Shown: in pieces, positions 13,643-23,810 of the stretch
How the letters are laid out: each line of letters begins with the position of its first letter
Numbering within the stretch: position 1 is the first letter of the stretch
Assembly (NCBI GenBank): GCA_028277445.1
Contig: JANQGG010000015.1
Location: forward strand, 62,001 to 126,000
Reading direction: 5' to 3'
DNA length: 64,000 bases
DNA from: Chloroherpetonaceae bacterium
GTDB lineage: Bacteria > Bacteroidota > Chlorobiia > Chlorobiales > Chloroherpetonaceae
Translations under genes and position numbers: made by a program
Notes under the pieces: model-generated
The model's database searches: none
What the model saw: only the letters and a program-made list of their open reading frames with translations
Told to the model about the DNA's origin: nothing

Positions 13643-13981
13643 ATGGGCATTTCAAAAACAGATTTATTTTCAAAAGAACAAAACGATATTGCATTGGCTG
13701 CAAAAGCCTTTGCAAATCCTGCACGCGTTGCAATCATTCAACATTTGATGAATGCAAAACAGTGCGTCAATAGTGATCTTGTGCAGGAGTTGGGACTTGC
13801 TCAGGCTACAATTAGCCAGCACCTACGGGAATTAAAAGACATTGGAATTATCCAGGGAACTATTGAAGGCAGCCGATTAAATTATTGCATTAATCCGGTG
13901 CGTTGGAAAAGCATACAGGATCAATTTAATGATTTGTTTAACCTATACATTAATATTTGTGAATCTGAGAAATGCTGCTAA
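13643..13981 (+). CDS. arsR: ArsR/SmtB-family metalloregulatory repressor
   Basis: A 112-residue winged-helix repressor. The core AAKAFANPARVAIIQHL, then LVQELGLAQATISQHLRELK as recognition helix, then the wing GIIQGTIEGSRLNYCIN, is typical. Cysteines lie at Cys42 (AKQCVNSDL), in the wing (YCIN), and in the tail ICESEKCC, where a vicinal pair closes the protein. These could bind trivalent arsenic. It starts a rightward cluster with arsM (62 bp downstream) and an ArsC-like protein. A palindrome just upstream suggests it represses its own operon. Confidence 0.88.
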   Translation: MGISKTDLFSKEQNDIALAAKAFANPARVAIIQHLMNAKQCVNSDLVQELGLAQATISQHLRELKDIGIIQGTIEGSRLNYCINPVRWKSIQDQFNDLFNLYINICESEKCC

Positions 13982-14042
13982 TTCATCTTTTATTCATCGT
14001 AATATAGCAATATTTAATTATTTAATTCTAAACATCGTTGTC

Positions 14043-14927
14043 ATGAAATCTCCTGAAGAACTCAAAAAAGTCGTTCAAGACCGATATGCAAAAATCGCAA
14101 AGCAAGGTAAAGCAGAAAATGCCGCCTCATGCTGCGGTGCAACCTCGCCATCCAATAAAGTCTATAACATCATGATGGACGATTACTCCAACATTGAGGG
14201 CTATGTTTCCGACGCTGATCTAGGGCTCGGTTGTGGGTTACCCACCGAATTTGCCAAAATCACAAAAGGCGATACGGTAGTTGATCTGGGATCAGGCGCC
14301 GGAAATGACTGCTTTGTTGCCCGCCATGAAACCGGGCCGGAAGGAAAAGTCATCGGTATAGATTTTACGCCCACAATGATTCAAAAAGCCCGAGAAAACG
14401 TTGAAAAAATTGGTTTTAACAATGTGGAATTCAGAGAAGGCGATATTGATAACATCCCCATCAGCAATGACCAAGCCGATGTTGTGATCAGCAATTGCGT
14501 GCTGAATCTTGTACCAAACAAACAAGACGTATTAGCTGAAATTTTCAGAGTTCTTAAACCCGGCGGGCATTTCAGCATATCTGATATCGTGCTTGTAGGT
14601 CAGCTGCCGGCAGCGTTAAAAAACGATGCCGAAATGTATGCCGGTTGCGTGGCCGGGGCAATCCAAAAATCCGATTACCTGAACTTCATTGAAGAAGCGG
14701 GTTTTCAAAACATGACGCTTCAAAAAGAAAAACCTGTGGTAATTCCTGAAGACATCCTCTCAAAATATATGGTGAAGGAGGCTATTGAAGCATTCAATCA
14801 AGGGAAGGTGGGTATTTACAGCATATCGGTTTATGCGGAAAAACCAGGCGAAAAAACAAAAAAACTTACGGTGCAAGAAAAGGTTGCCATAACCAACGCG
14901 TGTGATTCAAATTCCGGGTGTTGTTAA
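14043..14927 (+). CDS. arsM: Arsenite S-adenosylmethionine methyltransferase ArsM
   Basis: A 294-residue class I methyltransferase that converts As(III) to methylated arsenicals using SAM. Motif I is VVDLGSGAGNDCF. The conserved cysteines of ArsM are present: AASCCGATS near residue 30, GLGCGLP near 60, SNCVLNL near 155, and MYAGCVAGAI near 200. The protein ends in SGCC. The start ATG at 14043 is preferred because the in-frame extension upstream overlaps arsR and is not family-like. It lies between arsR and an ArsC/LMW-phosphatase-like gene, so arsenic control and chemistry are in one operon. No arsenite efflux pump gene is visible nearby. Confidence 0.92.
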   Translation: MKSPEELKKVVQDRYAKIAKQGKAENAASCCGATSPSNKVYNIMMDDYSNIEGYVSDADLGLGCGLPTEFAKITKGDTVVDLGSGAGNDCFVARHETGPEGKVIGIDFTPTMIQKARENVEKIGFNNVEFREGDIDNIPISNDQADVVISNCVLNLVPNKQDVLAEIFRVLKPGGHFSISDIVLVGQLPAALKNDAEMYAGCVAGAIQKSDYLNFIEEAGFQNMTLQKEKPVVIPEDILSKYMVKEAIEAFNQGKVGIYSISVYAEKPGEKTKKLTVQEKVAITNACDSNSGCC

Positions 14928-14952
14928 TAAGACCAATCAAAATAAAAGAGAT

Positions 14953-15696
14953 ATGAAAACAACATATTTTATCGTTTGCATGGCAATAGCCTTGTTTCAA
15001 AACTCCCATGCACAACCATATAAAACTACGCCTGCAATGAGTAAATCATTAGAACAGTCCGGGAATACAACACTTTATCCGGCGCTGGTTTCCTACTTTC
15101 GAACACTAGAAGCCAGTTTGGAAGCAATTGCCGAACCGAGAAAATCTGCTTTAAACCAGATTGCTCAATACATTGAAAAAAAGATAAATGCCGGTGAAGA
15201 TGTCAATCTTACCTTTATTTGCACACATAACAGCCGAAGAAGCCATATGAGTCAAATTTGGGCGAAAGCCGCTGCTTTCTATTTGGGGATATCTCAACAC
15301 ATACGCACATATTCCGGCGGCACAGAAGCTACGGCATTTAATGCTCGTGCGGTTGCTGCGATTGAACGCGCCGGTTTTCACATTGTAAATCCGGGTGGTG
15401 AAAATCCCAGATACCAAGTCAATGTTTCTGAAAATTCATCTTCAATGATTTGTTTTTCAAAAACATACAACGATCCTTACAATCCAGCATCCGATTTTGC
15501 AGCGGTGATGACTTGCTCCGATGCCGATCAAAATTGCCCAATCATATCCGGAGCGGACTTACGCGTGTCTTTACCATTCGTGGATCCAAAACTTTCGGAT
15601 GGCACTGCAAAGGAGAGCGAAACTTATGATGAACGTTGTCGGCAAATCGCGACGGAAATGCTGTATGTGATGTCCAGGGTGAAGTCTTCAGAATAA
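14953..15696 (+). CDS. Exported low-molecular-weight phosphatase / ArsC-like protein
   Basis: A 247-residue protein. The start ATG at 14953 gives a clear signal peptide (MKTTYFIVCMAIALFQNSHA), so it should act outside the cytoplasm. The catalytic loop ICTHNSRRSHMSQ matches the C-x-x-N-x-x-RS P-loop of low-molecular-weight protein tyrosine phosphatases and thioredoxin-coupled arsenate reductases. FVDPKLSDG near residue 210 fits the general-acid DP loop. Cysteines at MTCSDADQNC could be the resolving pair. Its place behind arsM suggests a role in arsenic metabolism, but a phosphatase role is equally possible. Periplasmic location would be unusual for a cytosolic thiol-driven reductase. Confidence 0.8.
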   Translation: MKTTYFIVCMAIALFQNSHAQPYKTTPAMSKSLEQSGNTTLYPALVSYFRTLEASLEAIAEPRKSALNQIAQYIEKKINAGEDVNLTFICTHNSRRSHMSQIWAKAAAFYLGISQHIRTYSGGTEATAFNARAVAAIERAGFHIVNPGGENPRYQVNVSENSSSMICFSKTYNDPYNPASDFAAVMTCSDADQNCPIISGADLRVSLPFVDPKLSDGTAKESETYDERCRQIATEMLYVMSRVKSSE

Positions 15697-18746: not shown

Positions 18747-21700
18747 TTATTCGTTATCATCCCGATCTTTGTATTTGTTTATGATTTGTTCAGCCTTTCG
18801 GTCGTAACCGTCTGCCAAATCGCGCAAGGTAACGGCAAATCTCTGAAAACCTGCGTTCTCTACTTCCTCGGCTTTACTTCGAAACTGCTGGGCCAGTTCT
18901 CTCTCCGGTTTGCCGATCGGATCAACCCAATAAACACCCCGTGAGTTGTATGTCCCTGTCTTATAACCTCGACGCATATCATCTGCATCACGCTCATTCA
19001 AAGATTTAGCGACTACTTGGTGTATCCACAAGCCACCAGGGTCAGTTGGTGCGTGAATCAACACTTCACCAATTGTAATGAGTGCAACTTCAAAGTGGCC
19101 GGATTCCGTGCAAACTTCCTTTATTTTTTGAAGCCATTCAGTAAAATGCTCTTCGCTGAATGTGCCATCTTTTAGTGTACCTGGAGGAGTCTTCCACTCA
19201 CGCAGTAGACGCCAAGCATTTGTAGCGATTGCCTTTGATTCCTCAGAGGGATATTTATGCGGCTGTTCTTCTTTCTTGGAACGGTAGATCAGTCGGATTA
19301 CCTCGCAAAAGAACTCGGGATCATTGGCTAGTCTGTTTTCAAGTAGTTGGGGTACCGCACCTTTATGACTTTTGAGCAAAGGGACATATGCCCATTCCAC
19401 TCTAAAAAGGTCGTCCTGGTTTACTGAAGGCTCTTCCTGAAGAAACTTGATCAACTCGACGATCCAATACCTAGTCATGGTGAAATTAGGCTCACTCGAA
19501 GAAAGCGCTGCGAGCAATGCTTTAACACATTGATTGCTATCGATTGGCTGCTTTTTACGGCGCATTCGGTAAAGGCAATAGATAGCTGCATGTGGTCTAC
19601 CATGCTCGATGAGTTTATTAACAGCAACGGCTAAATATTCTTCAGCATAATAAGCATTGGTGTTGATTCGCTTCCAATATTCATGCTCGTCTTTTTGAAG
19701 CCATTCAAATGCAAGATCCCATATTTCCCTAGTAAATGGCAAGTAGGCCAAAAATTGGCCAATTTAAGCTGGCGTCCAATCGGATTTATCGATACCATCG
19801 CACCACTCCCACCCATTGAGTTGGTAACGCCGCCAGATAAAAACGCTCACCAATGACTTAAGCTTGTTGTTCTTTGAATCCAGGAAATGAGGCAAAAAGG
19901 TACGTTCAATGACTGAATCATCAATAACGCCAAGAGCTTCCCCAACTTGTTCAGGAGAAGAAACAAATTCTGCAAATCGGATAACACCTTCAATGCCATC
20001 TTGCTGAAAGATTTCAGAAATTGCATTATCACGTCTCTTATTAAGTATCTTATGCTGCTCCTCCCAGTCGCCATTCTCATCGTAAAGATCATAATCTTGA
20101 TCTGTGAAAATATGTTGATATAAATTGAACGGGTTTTTTGGGGCGAGTTGCACGGTAACTTGCTCAATACGTGAAATGTGTTCGTCTGCCAATGGCAATT
20201 TCTCATCTGAGTATCGTCGATGGTTATTTGTAAATTTTGTGAGATGATCCCAAATCGAAAGTCGTTGGTCTTCAGGAAGGTCTGAAATGGCCTGGGAGGT
20301 GAGAACCTGAAGTAGTTGATCAAAAGAGGGTTTAGGTAGTTTATCAAAATGGTCAATTAATTCAGAAAGCCGATCAGGTTCCTGACCTGCGGCAGTCACC
20401 GCAAGTTCTGCATAACAAGTTACTTGTTGCGAGTACTCTTGATTTGTTGCGCCATTTTCCCAATTATCAGGGATGATTTTGCGCCAGTTTGGTTCGTACG
20501 AACCGGAAGTTGTTTGATGTTGCCCGGGTAGAAGCTGAATAATCAATTTCCAAGCGATATCCGGCCATTCATTAAGGATTGTCTGGACGGCCACCTTACG
20601 TTTGTCAACAGATGCTAGTGTTTGCGGATACCAAGGCAGTAAAATAGTTGATAGCGAATTGGATGGGCGATTAACCCATTGGCCACCGGGGTCATGGCTG
20701 GCAAGTTCCGCAAGCGCAACACAAACACGAACCAAATATTGTTCATCCCAGGCCAGCCCTTCCAAAGCCCAAAGCAGACCGGTTAAATAATTATGCCCTG
20801 TGATGCCGTTACTTTCCTGGGAAAAAAGCTCATCAAATGGTGAGGGTGCCAAACGCATCGCCTTCTCGACTGCATTAAGAAATTCACCCGGGGCAGCTTC
20901 GGCCAGGGTGGGCAGCAAACTGTTCAGGCTGCCCCACAAAGCCCAGTCAGCGTCGTTTAAAAGTTTACGTATCACCAGAACGCAGGTTTCTTCTGCCTTC
21001 CATTGCGAGCAGTTACCACACGCATCTGGCTGGCTGCCCAGAATGGCCAAACCCTCGGCGATTCCTTTTCGTAACTCGTGAGAACACTTCAGCACTTTAC
21101 CATGTATGTCGGCCGCGTATCGCTCTTCGGCAGGTAGTTCAAAAGAAGGTTCGGACTCTTTAAGCACGGAAACAGCCAGCAACCTAAACATTTCTAGGTT
21201 TTGATCAAAGATACGTGATCCCAGCAGATCCAAAAGCTCGGCTCTATTAACAACTTTCCAGATGCCGTTTTTGAGAGACAACGGGCTGTCAGGGCAGTGC
21301 AGTATTTCCCGCGCCTTGTTTAGCCACTCATTATAACTTATGCCAAGAAACTGTGTTATCACTTGAAGGTCGCATTGACTCTTTTCTTTCCAAGCACCAA
21401 TCAGAACTGCCAGGGCCAGATAAGATGCATCGGGGTGCTGAGTCCAATCGGTTTTAGACTTCTCTTGTGCAGCCTTGAACTTCTCGGGCATCTCCACAAC
21501 GGCTTTTTGTTTAAATGCTTCCAAAAGGTCGTCCGGCAACTTATCTGGCGTGATGGTACCAGCATCCTGATTCCAGGTTTGTACGATATCGACAATCCTA
21601 GACCAGACCCACTGCGGGTACTGCTGCTGAAATTGGGAAATGTGGGAATGCAGCAGAGATAGGACAACACCGAACTCGTTACCAAGATCGTAACCGAGTA

Positions 21701-22292
21701 GATGGAAATGGTTCAGAAATTCATAGAGTTCGTCTTTTGAAAGATATTTGCTGCCCTTTACTGCCTTAAGGTGGTGCTGAATGACCTTCAGCTTCTCAAT
21801 GCTCTTGGATGGACTGAAATTGGCATGCAGTACGTTTCTGAAAAACTCATCAACATTCTTGGTGTGCCTCGCCTGGTTCAGCAACCATTGTACGTTGTGT
21901 GCATCGGTCGCGCAGAGCGGCCCCGTAATCAGCGCAATAATATCCTTATTTTTTGAGAAGCGATTTGGATTATTAAAATCATTCCATGCTGCCTGCATTA
22001 CCTCCCCAAACAAAGCGCTGCCCTGTGTCATGGCGATGGAATGCTTAACCTGACCTAGAAGCTTCCGCCGTTCCTTGCTGTTTACGTCTTCTACGACAAC
22101 AACGAGGTCGTCTGTGTCGAAACCCTCGATTTTGCCCTGAAGTTTGATTTCCTTAATTGGCCAGCAGGGAAGACAAGGAGCGTGCCCACCGGTAAGCATC
22201 AAGGCAAGAAATGACGCTTGAACATGCGCTTCAAAATGAGAGCCACCACCACCGGTGGAAAATGGATTGCTTAGAGTCTTCATTTTTGCCAT
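18747..22292 (-). pseudogene. Large PD-(D/E)XK-nuclease-like helical-repeat protein split by one in-frame stop
   Basis: One continuous frame of 1182 codons is interrupted by a single TAA at 19764-19766. The upstream part is 842 residues (19764-22292). The downstream part continues in the same frame (IGQFLAYLPFTREIWDL) for about 338 residues to 18747, and its first possible start is a TTG without a ribosome-binding site. So this is one gene with a nonsense codon, or a sequencing error. Residues 14-85 look like a PD-(D/E)XK nuclease domain: GGGGSHFEAHVQA (Glu21), FDTDDLVVVVED (Asp61/62), LLGQVKH (Gln81-x-Lys83). The remaining 1000 residues are helical and Trp-rich, with no P-loop seen. Accessory surroundings suggest a defence role; no function is known to me. 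Confidence 0.75.
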
Positions 22293-22362
22293 CTATAGCT
22301 CTCAAAGTTCTTATACCTAACACGGTATGCATAATGCTGTTGATCAAACATTATCTTTCCCC

Positions 22363-22740
22363 TCATGATTTTTTCATTTTTTCAGTGAGTTTATCAACTG
22401 CATCAAGTAAATGTTCGGGCAGGTTTCTTGAGCTTTCAATAATGGCAATAACACCCATATTACCAGCCGAAAGCCTTCGATAAAAAACACAATACCCACC
22501 GCGGTCGCTGGATTTGCTTTTGTATTGAAAATAATAGACCTCTTTTTTTAACCGTTTAGCTTTTCCGGTCTTAGGAAAGGGCCTGTCATGCCTGTTTTTG
22601 TTCTGTTTTTCTATCGCATGATAAAGCTTTGTCACATAAGTGCGAGCATGCTCAATACCCCATTTTTTGCTGTATTGAGCAATCTCGCTCATATGGATTT
22701 TAGACTGGCTGTAAAAATATGGAGGAGGTATCGATGGCAT
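22363..22740 (-). CDS. ParE/RelE-superfamily toxin-like protein
   Basis: A 125-residue basic protein. The central EVYYFQYKSKSSDRGGYCVFYRR and GVIAIIESSRN strands give the beta-sheet pattern of RelE/ParE toxins. The N-terminal region is longer than usual (about 40 residues before the core). Its ATG overlaps the stop of the upstream ribbon-helix-helix antitoxin gene by one base (TAATG), which is typical for toxin-antitoxin operons. RelE toxins cut mRNA on ribosomes and ParE toxins poison gyrase; the sequence does not decide which applies. Confidence 0.7.
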   Translation of the reverse strand: MPSIPPPYFYSQSKIHMSEIAQYSKKWGIEHARTYVTKLYHAIEKQNKNRHDRPFPKTGKAKRLKKEVYYFQYKSKSSDRGGYCVFYRRLSAGNMGVIAIIESSRNLPEHLLDAVDKLTEKMKKS

Positions 22741-23024
22741 TATTTGGATAATCCGTTTTCGTCAAGGATATCATTAAGCTTTAAAGGCTTAAATTCACTT
22801 TCCTGCGCCATAGCGCCGGGAATTAGCGCCTCCCAAACTGCATCCAAATGCCGATGAAGGCTTGGCTCACTATAGGCGTCTTTTCGAACCAGGTCTCGCA
22901 AAAACTCACCGGCATTGGCATACATCCCATTGGGTCCAATTTGTTTTTCAATATGTTGCATTAACGCCTCGGGCATGAACACTTGCAATCGCTTATTTCC
23001 GATTTTATTTTGAACATCCGACAT
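22740..23024 (-). CDS. ParD-like ribbon-helix-helix antitoxin
   Basis: A 94-residue protein. The start ATG at 23022-23024 follows an AAGGAG site; an in-frame extension upstream is not protein-like. The N-terminal KRLQVFMPEALMQHIEKQI has the beta strand plus helix of ribbon-helix-helix DNA-binding proteins. YANAGEFLRDLVRKD is the typical second helix of ParD. The C-terminal tail (FKPLKLNDILDENGLSK) would wrap the toxin. It overlaps the toxin gene by one base and probably represses the operon. Confidence 0.75.
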   Translation of the reverse strand: MSDVQNKIGNKRLQVFMPEALMQHIEKQIGPNGMYANAGEFLRDLVRKDAYSEPSLHRHLDAVWEALIPGAMAQESEFKPLKLNDILDENGLSK

Positions 23025-23236
23025 AATTTCCGGCTCCTTGACCATAAAGTTTATTTGTTTATGCAAGTAAATACTCATTTCATACTTAAATATAAGTATA
23101 ACGTTTATGACGTATTCAACTGCAAAATAATTTGAACAGTATAAAAACAAATCATGCCTGTGAAAACATGCACTTTTAAACCCCTGCTTTCTTAGGAGTG
23201 ACTTGCTATTAAAACGCCAGCACATCCAGTGCAAAT

Positions 23237-23560
23237 TTATGATAGTTTTGACGATACATAGCGGTTCAAACTTACGCCTTGTTCTGCTGCCTGAATGGCC
23301 ATGTTTCTGTGCTTTTCAGGCGGGACACGAACCATAAATTTACCGCTGTATGTCTTATCTGCAAGTGGCTGAGGGATATCCTCACCATTGGCCTGCATAT
23401 CTTCAACCACTTCGCCAACCAGATTTATAAGTCCGTTTAACGCATTTGCATGATTTCCCGCAAGGTAAGAGAGGCTTGGAAATTCTGCACAGAGGGCAAC
23501 ATATTCCCTATCCTCTTCAGACCATGTGACACGGTATGTATAGTGTTTATAATTAACCAT
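23237..23560 (-). CDS. hicB: HicB-family antitoxin (first HicAB pair)
   Basis: A 107-residue HicB. The N-terminal half is a partial RNase H-like fold (YTYRVTWSEEDREYVALCAE ending in FPSLSYLAG) that blocks the toxin. The C-terminal half (GKFMVRVPPEKHRNMAI and VSLNRYVSSKL) is a ribbon-helix-helix DNA-binding module, so the protein can autoregulate. The gene overlaps the hicA stop by 8 bp. It belongs to an accessory island with a ParDE-type pair and a split giant gene downstream. Confidence 0.9.
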   Translation of the reverse strand: MVNYKHYTYRVTWSEEDREYVALCAEFPSLSYLAGNHANALNGLINLVGEVVEDMQANGEDIPQPLADKTYSGKFMVRVPPEKHRNMAIQAAEQGVSLNRYVSSKLS

Positions 23561-23810
23561 TTCTTTTTAACTCAAGATTTTTAATTGCCACTAAAACCTG
23601 CCTTACCTGGTAGGTTTTGGCTTTCCCATCTTTACCCTTTTGAATATTCACGCGAGGATCGCCTTGCCATGGCGTTTTATAAACATGGTGGCTGGTACCT
23701 TTATTGCGCGGTTCTCCAAAATAGTGAGAACACACTTTAGCAAGATCAGAAAAACGCACGTTTTGTGGCGCTTTTTCCATCTCCCTCAGCGTTTTCTCAA
23801 TCTTGCCCAT
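23553..23810 (-). CDS. hicA: HicA-family mRNA interferase toxin (first HicAB pair)
   Basis: An 85-residue protein with the small double-stranded-RNA-binding-like fold of HicA. The catalytic histidine is in GTSHHVYKTP (His41/His42), and the closing strand is GKAKTYQVRQVLVAIKNL. HicA cleaves mRNA without ribosomes. It lies upstream of and overlaps hicB, the usual HicAB order. There is a 33-residue leader before the glycine-rich turn, slightly longer than minimal HicA proteins, in a form seen in HicA family members. Confidence 0.88.
   Translation of the reverse strand: MGKIEKTLREMEKAPQNVRFSDLAKVCSHYFGEPRNKGTSHHVYKTPWQGDPRVNIQKGKDGKAKTYQVRQVLVAIKNLELKRNG

Follow-up and report, generated by a model that had tools for sequence, protein, structure and literature searches.

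In the genome of a Chloroherpetonaceae bacterium (GenBank assembly GCA_028277445.1, 3.42 Mb in 70 contigs), a stretch of 64,000 nucleotides on contig JANQGG010000015.1 (positions 62,001 to 126,000, the window) carries on its minus strand a gene of 1181 codons, at 18747..22292, that is co-linear with intact relatives elsewhere and interrupted by a single in-frame TAA. With a probability of roughly 0.7, the gene belongs to a modular sensor-effector immune family, in which a helical solenoid would hold a nuclease and release it on infection, and was disabled recently. From an ATG at 22292 there are 842 sense codons down to 19767, the TAA at 19764..19766 then closes the frame, and a further 338 sense codons follow in the same frame (18750..19763) as far as the final stop at 18747-18749. 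These coordinates are exactly those of an earlier account made by a model from the letters alone (the sequence-only reading), which had taken the two frames for one interrupted protein. That claim has held, as full-length relatives align over the junction unbroken and the two frames are thus not in phase by chance. The second piece also lacks a ribosome-binding site as had been claimed, its only start candidate being a TTG at 19751 beside which no Shine-Dalgarno-like sequence was found.

Intact full-length relatives occur at about 65 loci of bacterial and archaeal genomes and on IMG/VR contigs, at 42-80% identity and across many phyla, with 326 relatives of the family found in one species-level scan. 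Relatives at 79-80% identity (L016, L031 and others) cover residues 1-1179, and one genome (G030) has an intact frame of 1180 codons at 77% identity. The N-terminal head of the protein had been suspected to be a PD-(D/E)XK nuclease, with structure prediction proposed as the check, and an AlphaFold2 model of residues 1-329, built on 56 relatives (mean predicted local distance difference test score, pLDDT, 86), gives the element order of that fold. A first helix (residues 18-34) carries Glu21 (22230..22232, minus), followed by a strand (45-50), a second core strand (63-68) that starts from Asp61-Asp62 (22107..22112, minus), a third (75-83) with Gln81-x-Lys83 (22044..22052, minus) and a further helix, with all of the named catalytic residues unchanged in 56/56 relatives. 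When compared with solved structures by VIA-align, model residues 11-262 (about 21507..22262, minus) matched the nuclease of Avs3 with Z 14.0 (208 residues, 3.7 Å), Lamassu LmuA with 13.3, HerA-DUF with 12.9, Cap4 with 12.8 and Hachiman with 10.8, the top matches being defence nucleases only; Foldseek matched the head to LmuA at E 1.7e-5. The predicted structure contains the features of a Cap4/DUF4297-like nuclease, namely a core with a helix-borne Glu, an Asp and a QxK together with a helical elaboration, and it shares its fold and its E...D...QxK arrangement with Cap4 of the cyclic-oligonucleotide-based anti-phage signalling system (CBASS), LmuA, HerA-DUF and the Avs3 nuclease (Z 12.6-14.0). 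Those nucleases are partnered by SAVED, nucleoside triphosphatase (NTPase), SMC-like or HerA proteins, whereas the head in the window is joined to a solenoid.

The remainder of the protein, from about residue 280 to 1181 (18750..21455, minus, interrupted at residue 843), is predicted to be a HEAT/ARM-like alpha-solenoid of about 900 residues. The model of an intact relative with 79% identity (L016, 1179 residues, mean pLDDT 88) is entirely helical beyond the head. No Walker-type or P-loop NTPase family matched the window protein, and residues 280 onward are modelled as solenoid, in agreement with the helical body without P-loop that had been proposed. Foldseek and VIA searches with the body returned generic importin, condensin and PP2A-like repeats alone (Z up to 8.6), matches that are uninformative for helical repeats, and a more precise identity of the solenoid from structure search was therefore rejected. 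The body has no covering Pfam or NCBIfam family, and the view of the sequence-only reading that the family is uncharacterised stands accordingly.

The same body is found, in plasmids as well as genomes, behind other N-termini. One variant combines a helix-turn-helix, a 'GWDG...WEhGT...KA' segment that is probably a second type of PD-(D/E)XK, and an NTPase-like region without P-loop (Rhizobium, Thalassospira, Cupriavidus, S. baltica OS195 and others). Another is HEPN-like with an R-N-x3-H-type motif, fused to the body in L042, L047 and L067 and encoded by separate genes in L080 and L089, whilst L087 has an AlbA/Schlafen-like head; the HEPN and AlbA names were assigned by reading the sequences and not by search. 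A short GxGHNVAGD segment lies beside a separate HetE-N adaptor gene in Buttiauxella (PF20701, E 1.5e-40), and is likewise present in L103 and L105. In a tree built from 94 bodies, the well-supported branches require the PD-(D/E)XK head to have changed at least 6 times. The three HEPN-headed rows that share a type are scattered over three places in the tree, and one of them (L067) lies beside PD-(D/E)XK-headed sisters (L035, L036) that occupy the same position in a BREX (bacteriophage exclusion) operon. At four loci (L080, L088, L089, L090) head and body are two genes overlapping by about 10-13 nt, with the split at residue 316/317 (21344..21345 of the window, minus), which marks the head/body junction. 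The overlap of the head-gene stop with the body-gene ATG is conserved at these loci (e.g. GATGGATTATAA) and could reflect translational coupling or programmed frameshifting.

The body can be tied, as a remote homologue by profile comparison, to an experimentally found defence system. PD-lambda-4 emerged from an E. coli selection for genes that act against phages (Vassallo et al. 2022, PMC9519451). Profiles of PD-lambda-4_A proteins from Enterobacteriaceae are co-linear with those relatives that have an eroded NTPase (98.8%, E 5e-17, 962 columns) and less strongly with the window-type body (93.7%, E 2e-7), and reversed and column-shuffled controls gave 0.0-0.2%. The PADLOC PD-Lambda-4_A model itself had no match to the window protein at E 1, and matched the relatives OS195 and BA175 weakly. 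PD-lambda-4_A proteins keep a P-loop (GLSGVGKT in L108) and an N-terminal GGxD...QxK-like segment, whereas the window-type protein has neither this segment nor the NTPase and carries the Cap4-type head instead. A similar design, of an N-terminal exchangeable effector and a C-terminal body of helical repeats, is seen in the NLR-like Avs/STAND sensors, although these have a central P-loop NTPase that the window-type protein does not.

From this domain design it may be proposed that in the intact protein the solenoid of about 900 residues keeps the N-terminal Cap4/DUF4297-like nuclease inactive until it recognises a sign of infection, which might be a protein of the phage or an assault on the restriction enzymes and partners of the cell itself. 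Recognition would then release or assemble the nuclease, and the freed enzyme would cut DNA, probably including that of the host, so as to abort the infection. HEPN-like and AlbA-type domains are usually RNases, and in members with such RNase-like heads translation would be stopped instead. Through the stop, the copy in the present genome loses the final 338 residues of its solenoid, a part that contains 74 of the 288 strongly conserved columns, and the 842-residue product is therefore most likely inactive.

A number of observations weigh against this proposal. No Pfam match, DUF4297 included, was found for the head in any member (0/56), nor was there a sequence match to solved chains or at sequence level to the Cap4/DUF4297-type nucleases, and the head is for this reason filed as a fold relative of these enzymes rather than a sequence-level member, its assignment as a nuclease being by predicted fold. 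That the body acts as a sensor is argued by analogy, and the evidence for members with the Cap4-type head is computational. At 62 of 84 loci no type I restriction-modification (R-M) or BREX gene was detected by the search used, many of the flanks being incomplete, and the genome of the present copy has no Methylase_S match and hence no type I specificity gene as a partner.

The defence role that had been thought plausible from neighbouring toxin-antitoxin pairs now has a firmer basis in the Avs3, Lamassu, Cap4 and HerA-DUF folds, the kinship with PD-lambda-4 and the operons in which relatives are found. Neighbours at the 84 loci were named by Pfam and NCBIfam searches and traced by BLASTP, with type I restriction genes at 15/84 loci and BREX genes at 7/84 (22 together). 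The order hsdM-hsdS-[gene]-hsdR, in some cases with extra genes between, occurs in L031, L057, L059, L069 and L074, and pglX-[gene]-pglZ, with the family gene always between the two, in L035, L036, L042, L045, L047 and L067. Of the Pfam families seen in 143 immediate neighbours, Methylase_S is the most frequent (10/143), and it is not among the 25 commonest families, the depth of both lists, for 143 random Chlorobiota genes, which serve as a rough background from other taxa. On the body tree the 15 R-M loci need 15 changes, which implies repeated recruitment or exchange. Some of the BREX operons also have a Schlafen AlbA-like gene upstream. A gene for a YhcG-like PDDEXK nuclease directly precedes a family member in Adhaeribacter (L011:3151-4212), and YhcG genes recur near the type I R-M-borne members L033 and L059.

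Such positions recall PrrC of the EcoprrI locus, where the order is hsdM-hsdS-prrC-hsdR and inhibition of the restriction enzyme by the phage peptide Stp activates the protein (PMC3014915). PrrC occupies the same place in type I R-M operons as several relatives, although it is a different protein, an NTPase joined to a transfer RNA (tRNA) anticodon nuclease, for which no homology with the family is claimed. It is possible, although less likely than not, that the protein guards restriction machinery in this way, staying latent as long as it contacts type I R-M or BREX proteins and firing once a phage inhibitor disables them. The constant pglX-[gene]-pglZ placement favours this, whereas most members lie outside such operons, placement within them is not obligatory (22/84 loci, and none in the window) and could be simple co-expression, and the present copy, whose genome has no Methylase_S match, cannot be reliant on a type I system in its own host. 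For the operon-borne members a guard would in any case be a special form of the immune sensor-effector proposed above.

Rather less likely is that the protein is an auxiliary restriction nuclease that works alongside R-M or BREX and cuts invading DNA only, not a suicide effector. The predicted DNase fold and the R-M or BREX context would suit such a role, and in the portion of a BREX survey covered here auxiliary PD-(D/E)XK nucleases are reported to be common in BREX loci, with PD-(D/E)XK, HEPN and Schlafen effectors likewise found inside BREX operons (PMC12839542). However, the exchange of the head for HEPN-like and AlbA-type domains fits cell-directed effectors better. The same portion of that survey describes no shared solenoid of about 900 residues uniting such heads.

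The stop is a lesion or, less probably, an error, rather than a mechanism, and the codons on both sides of it bear on its age. Against seven relatives the ratio of non-synonymous to synonymous substitution rates (dN/dS) is 0.13-0.20 past the stop and 0.11-0.15 ahead of it, with 0.14-0.19 between intact relatives in the post-stop region, and only 1 of the 74 strongly conserved columns past the stop deviates. The post-stop codons are, by these measures, under strong purifying selection, and since this selection continues after the stop the TAA must be recent (or an error). Of the origins that the sequence-only reading had offered for the stop, a recent loss fits best. It is improbable that the gene is intact and the TAA was introduced by sequencing or assembly, although the lack of decay downstream and an assembly that is a single draft would agree with this, as broken copies occur elsewhere in the family (frameshifted L071, L075 and L076) and consensus substitution errors are rare. 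The particular error that had been suggested, GAA read as TAA, is not favoured, as column 843 is one and the same residue in 64/69 relatives and glutamate in only 2/69; a base-call error of another kind is possible.

It is very improbable that the stop is a regulated switch between two functional products, whether by readthrough, phase variation or a true two-gene form, for although the family does have two-gene members, whose only regular point of division is residue 316/317, almost every one of about 70 relatives reads through the stop position and none is split at 843, and the second piece has no ribosome-binding site. Homologues regularly divided at this point, which the sequence-only reading had named as the outcome that would speak against it, were looked for by alignment across the junction, as it had advised, and were not found, so that a natural two-gene split at 843 was rejected. 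Nor did the phase-variation-like origin that it had allowed find support in slippage, as the stop is an ordinary substitution that leaves the frame unchanged and lies outside any repeat tract, the longest homopolymer nearby being T5.

The gene has a G+C content of 45.7% against 40.9% in the window and is matched in only 2/97 other genomes of the class, and on these grounds it was probably acquired. In comparison with a relative genome (G001) the neighbouring gene on one side is present (L145) and the gene on the other side gave no match, so that an empty site is not demonstrated. A phage gene was considered and rejected, there being no match among 50,697 phage records; the ten IMG/VR contigs with relatives may be fragments of prophages or islands. 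The start of the gene is overlapped (...AGATGGCAAAAATGA) by a 23-codon frame at 22282-22353 (minus) with a good ribosome-binding sequence (GAGGGGAAAG), which is perhaps a leader, or else a remnant that couples translation.

Directly upstream, at 22363-23810 (minus), are two small toxin-antitoxin-like pairs, the first formed by a ParE-like frame of 125 aa and a ParD-like one (both matched weakly, at E 0.06 and 0.008), the second by a HicB protein (E 1.9e-17) and an adjacent HicA-like frame of 85 aa without a family match. Membership of the large gene in a toxin-antitoxin system was rejected, as ParE/ParD-like and HicA/HicB pairs are self-standing small modules and not recurrent neighbours of the family. 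Further away, at 13929-15696 (plus), a methyltransferase-like frame with Cys motifs resembles, by eye, arsenite methyltransferases, and is followed downstream by a frame that, again by eye, is arsenate-reductase-like (low-molecular-weight phosphatase). These frames are possibly an arsenic resistance cluster.

Costly defence genes are often lost, and the broken copy alone shows just that genes of this type are lost. The heads and contexts of the family are of known kinds, whilst the parts of the literature covered here give no description of an NTPase-free solenoid shared among exchangeable heads, although the supplements could contain one. It may tentatively be suggested, with more doubt than confidence, that the family is a distinct NTPase-free class of immune sensor, in which a PD-lambda-4/STAND-like ancestor lost its NTPase and the descendants, whose one conserved solenoid takes exchangeable effector heads (DNase, putative RNases of HEPN or AlbA type, adaptor), were recruited again and again into type I R-M and BREX operons as guards that fire when this first line of defence is disabled. 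If the reading of the family as modular sensor-effectors is true, a large family without a Pfam, NCBIfam or direct PADLOC name would be an NLR-like immune sensor-effector without the NTPase switch, and its placement between hsdS and hsdR and between pglX and pglZ would provide a testable case for restriction systems that are guarded, in the manner of PrrC, with exchangeable effectors.
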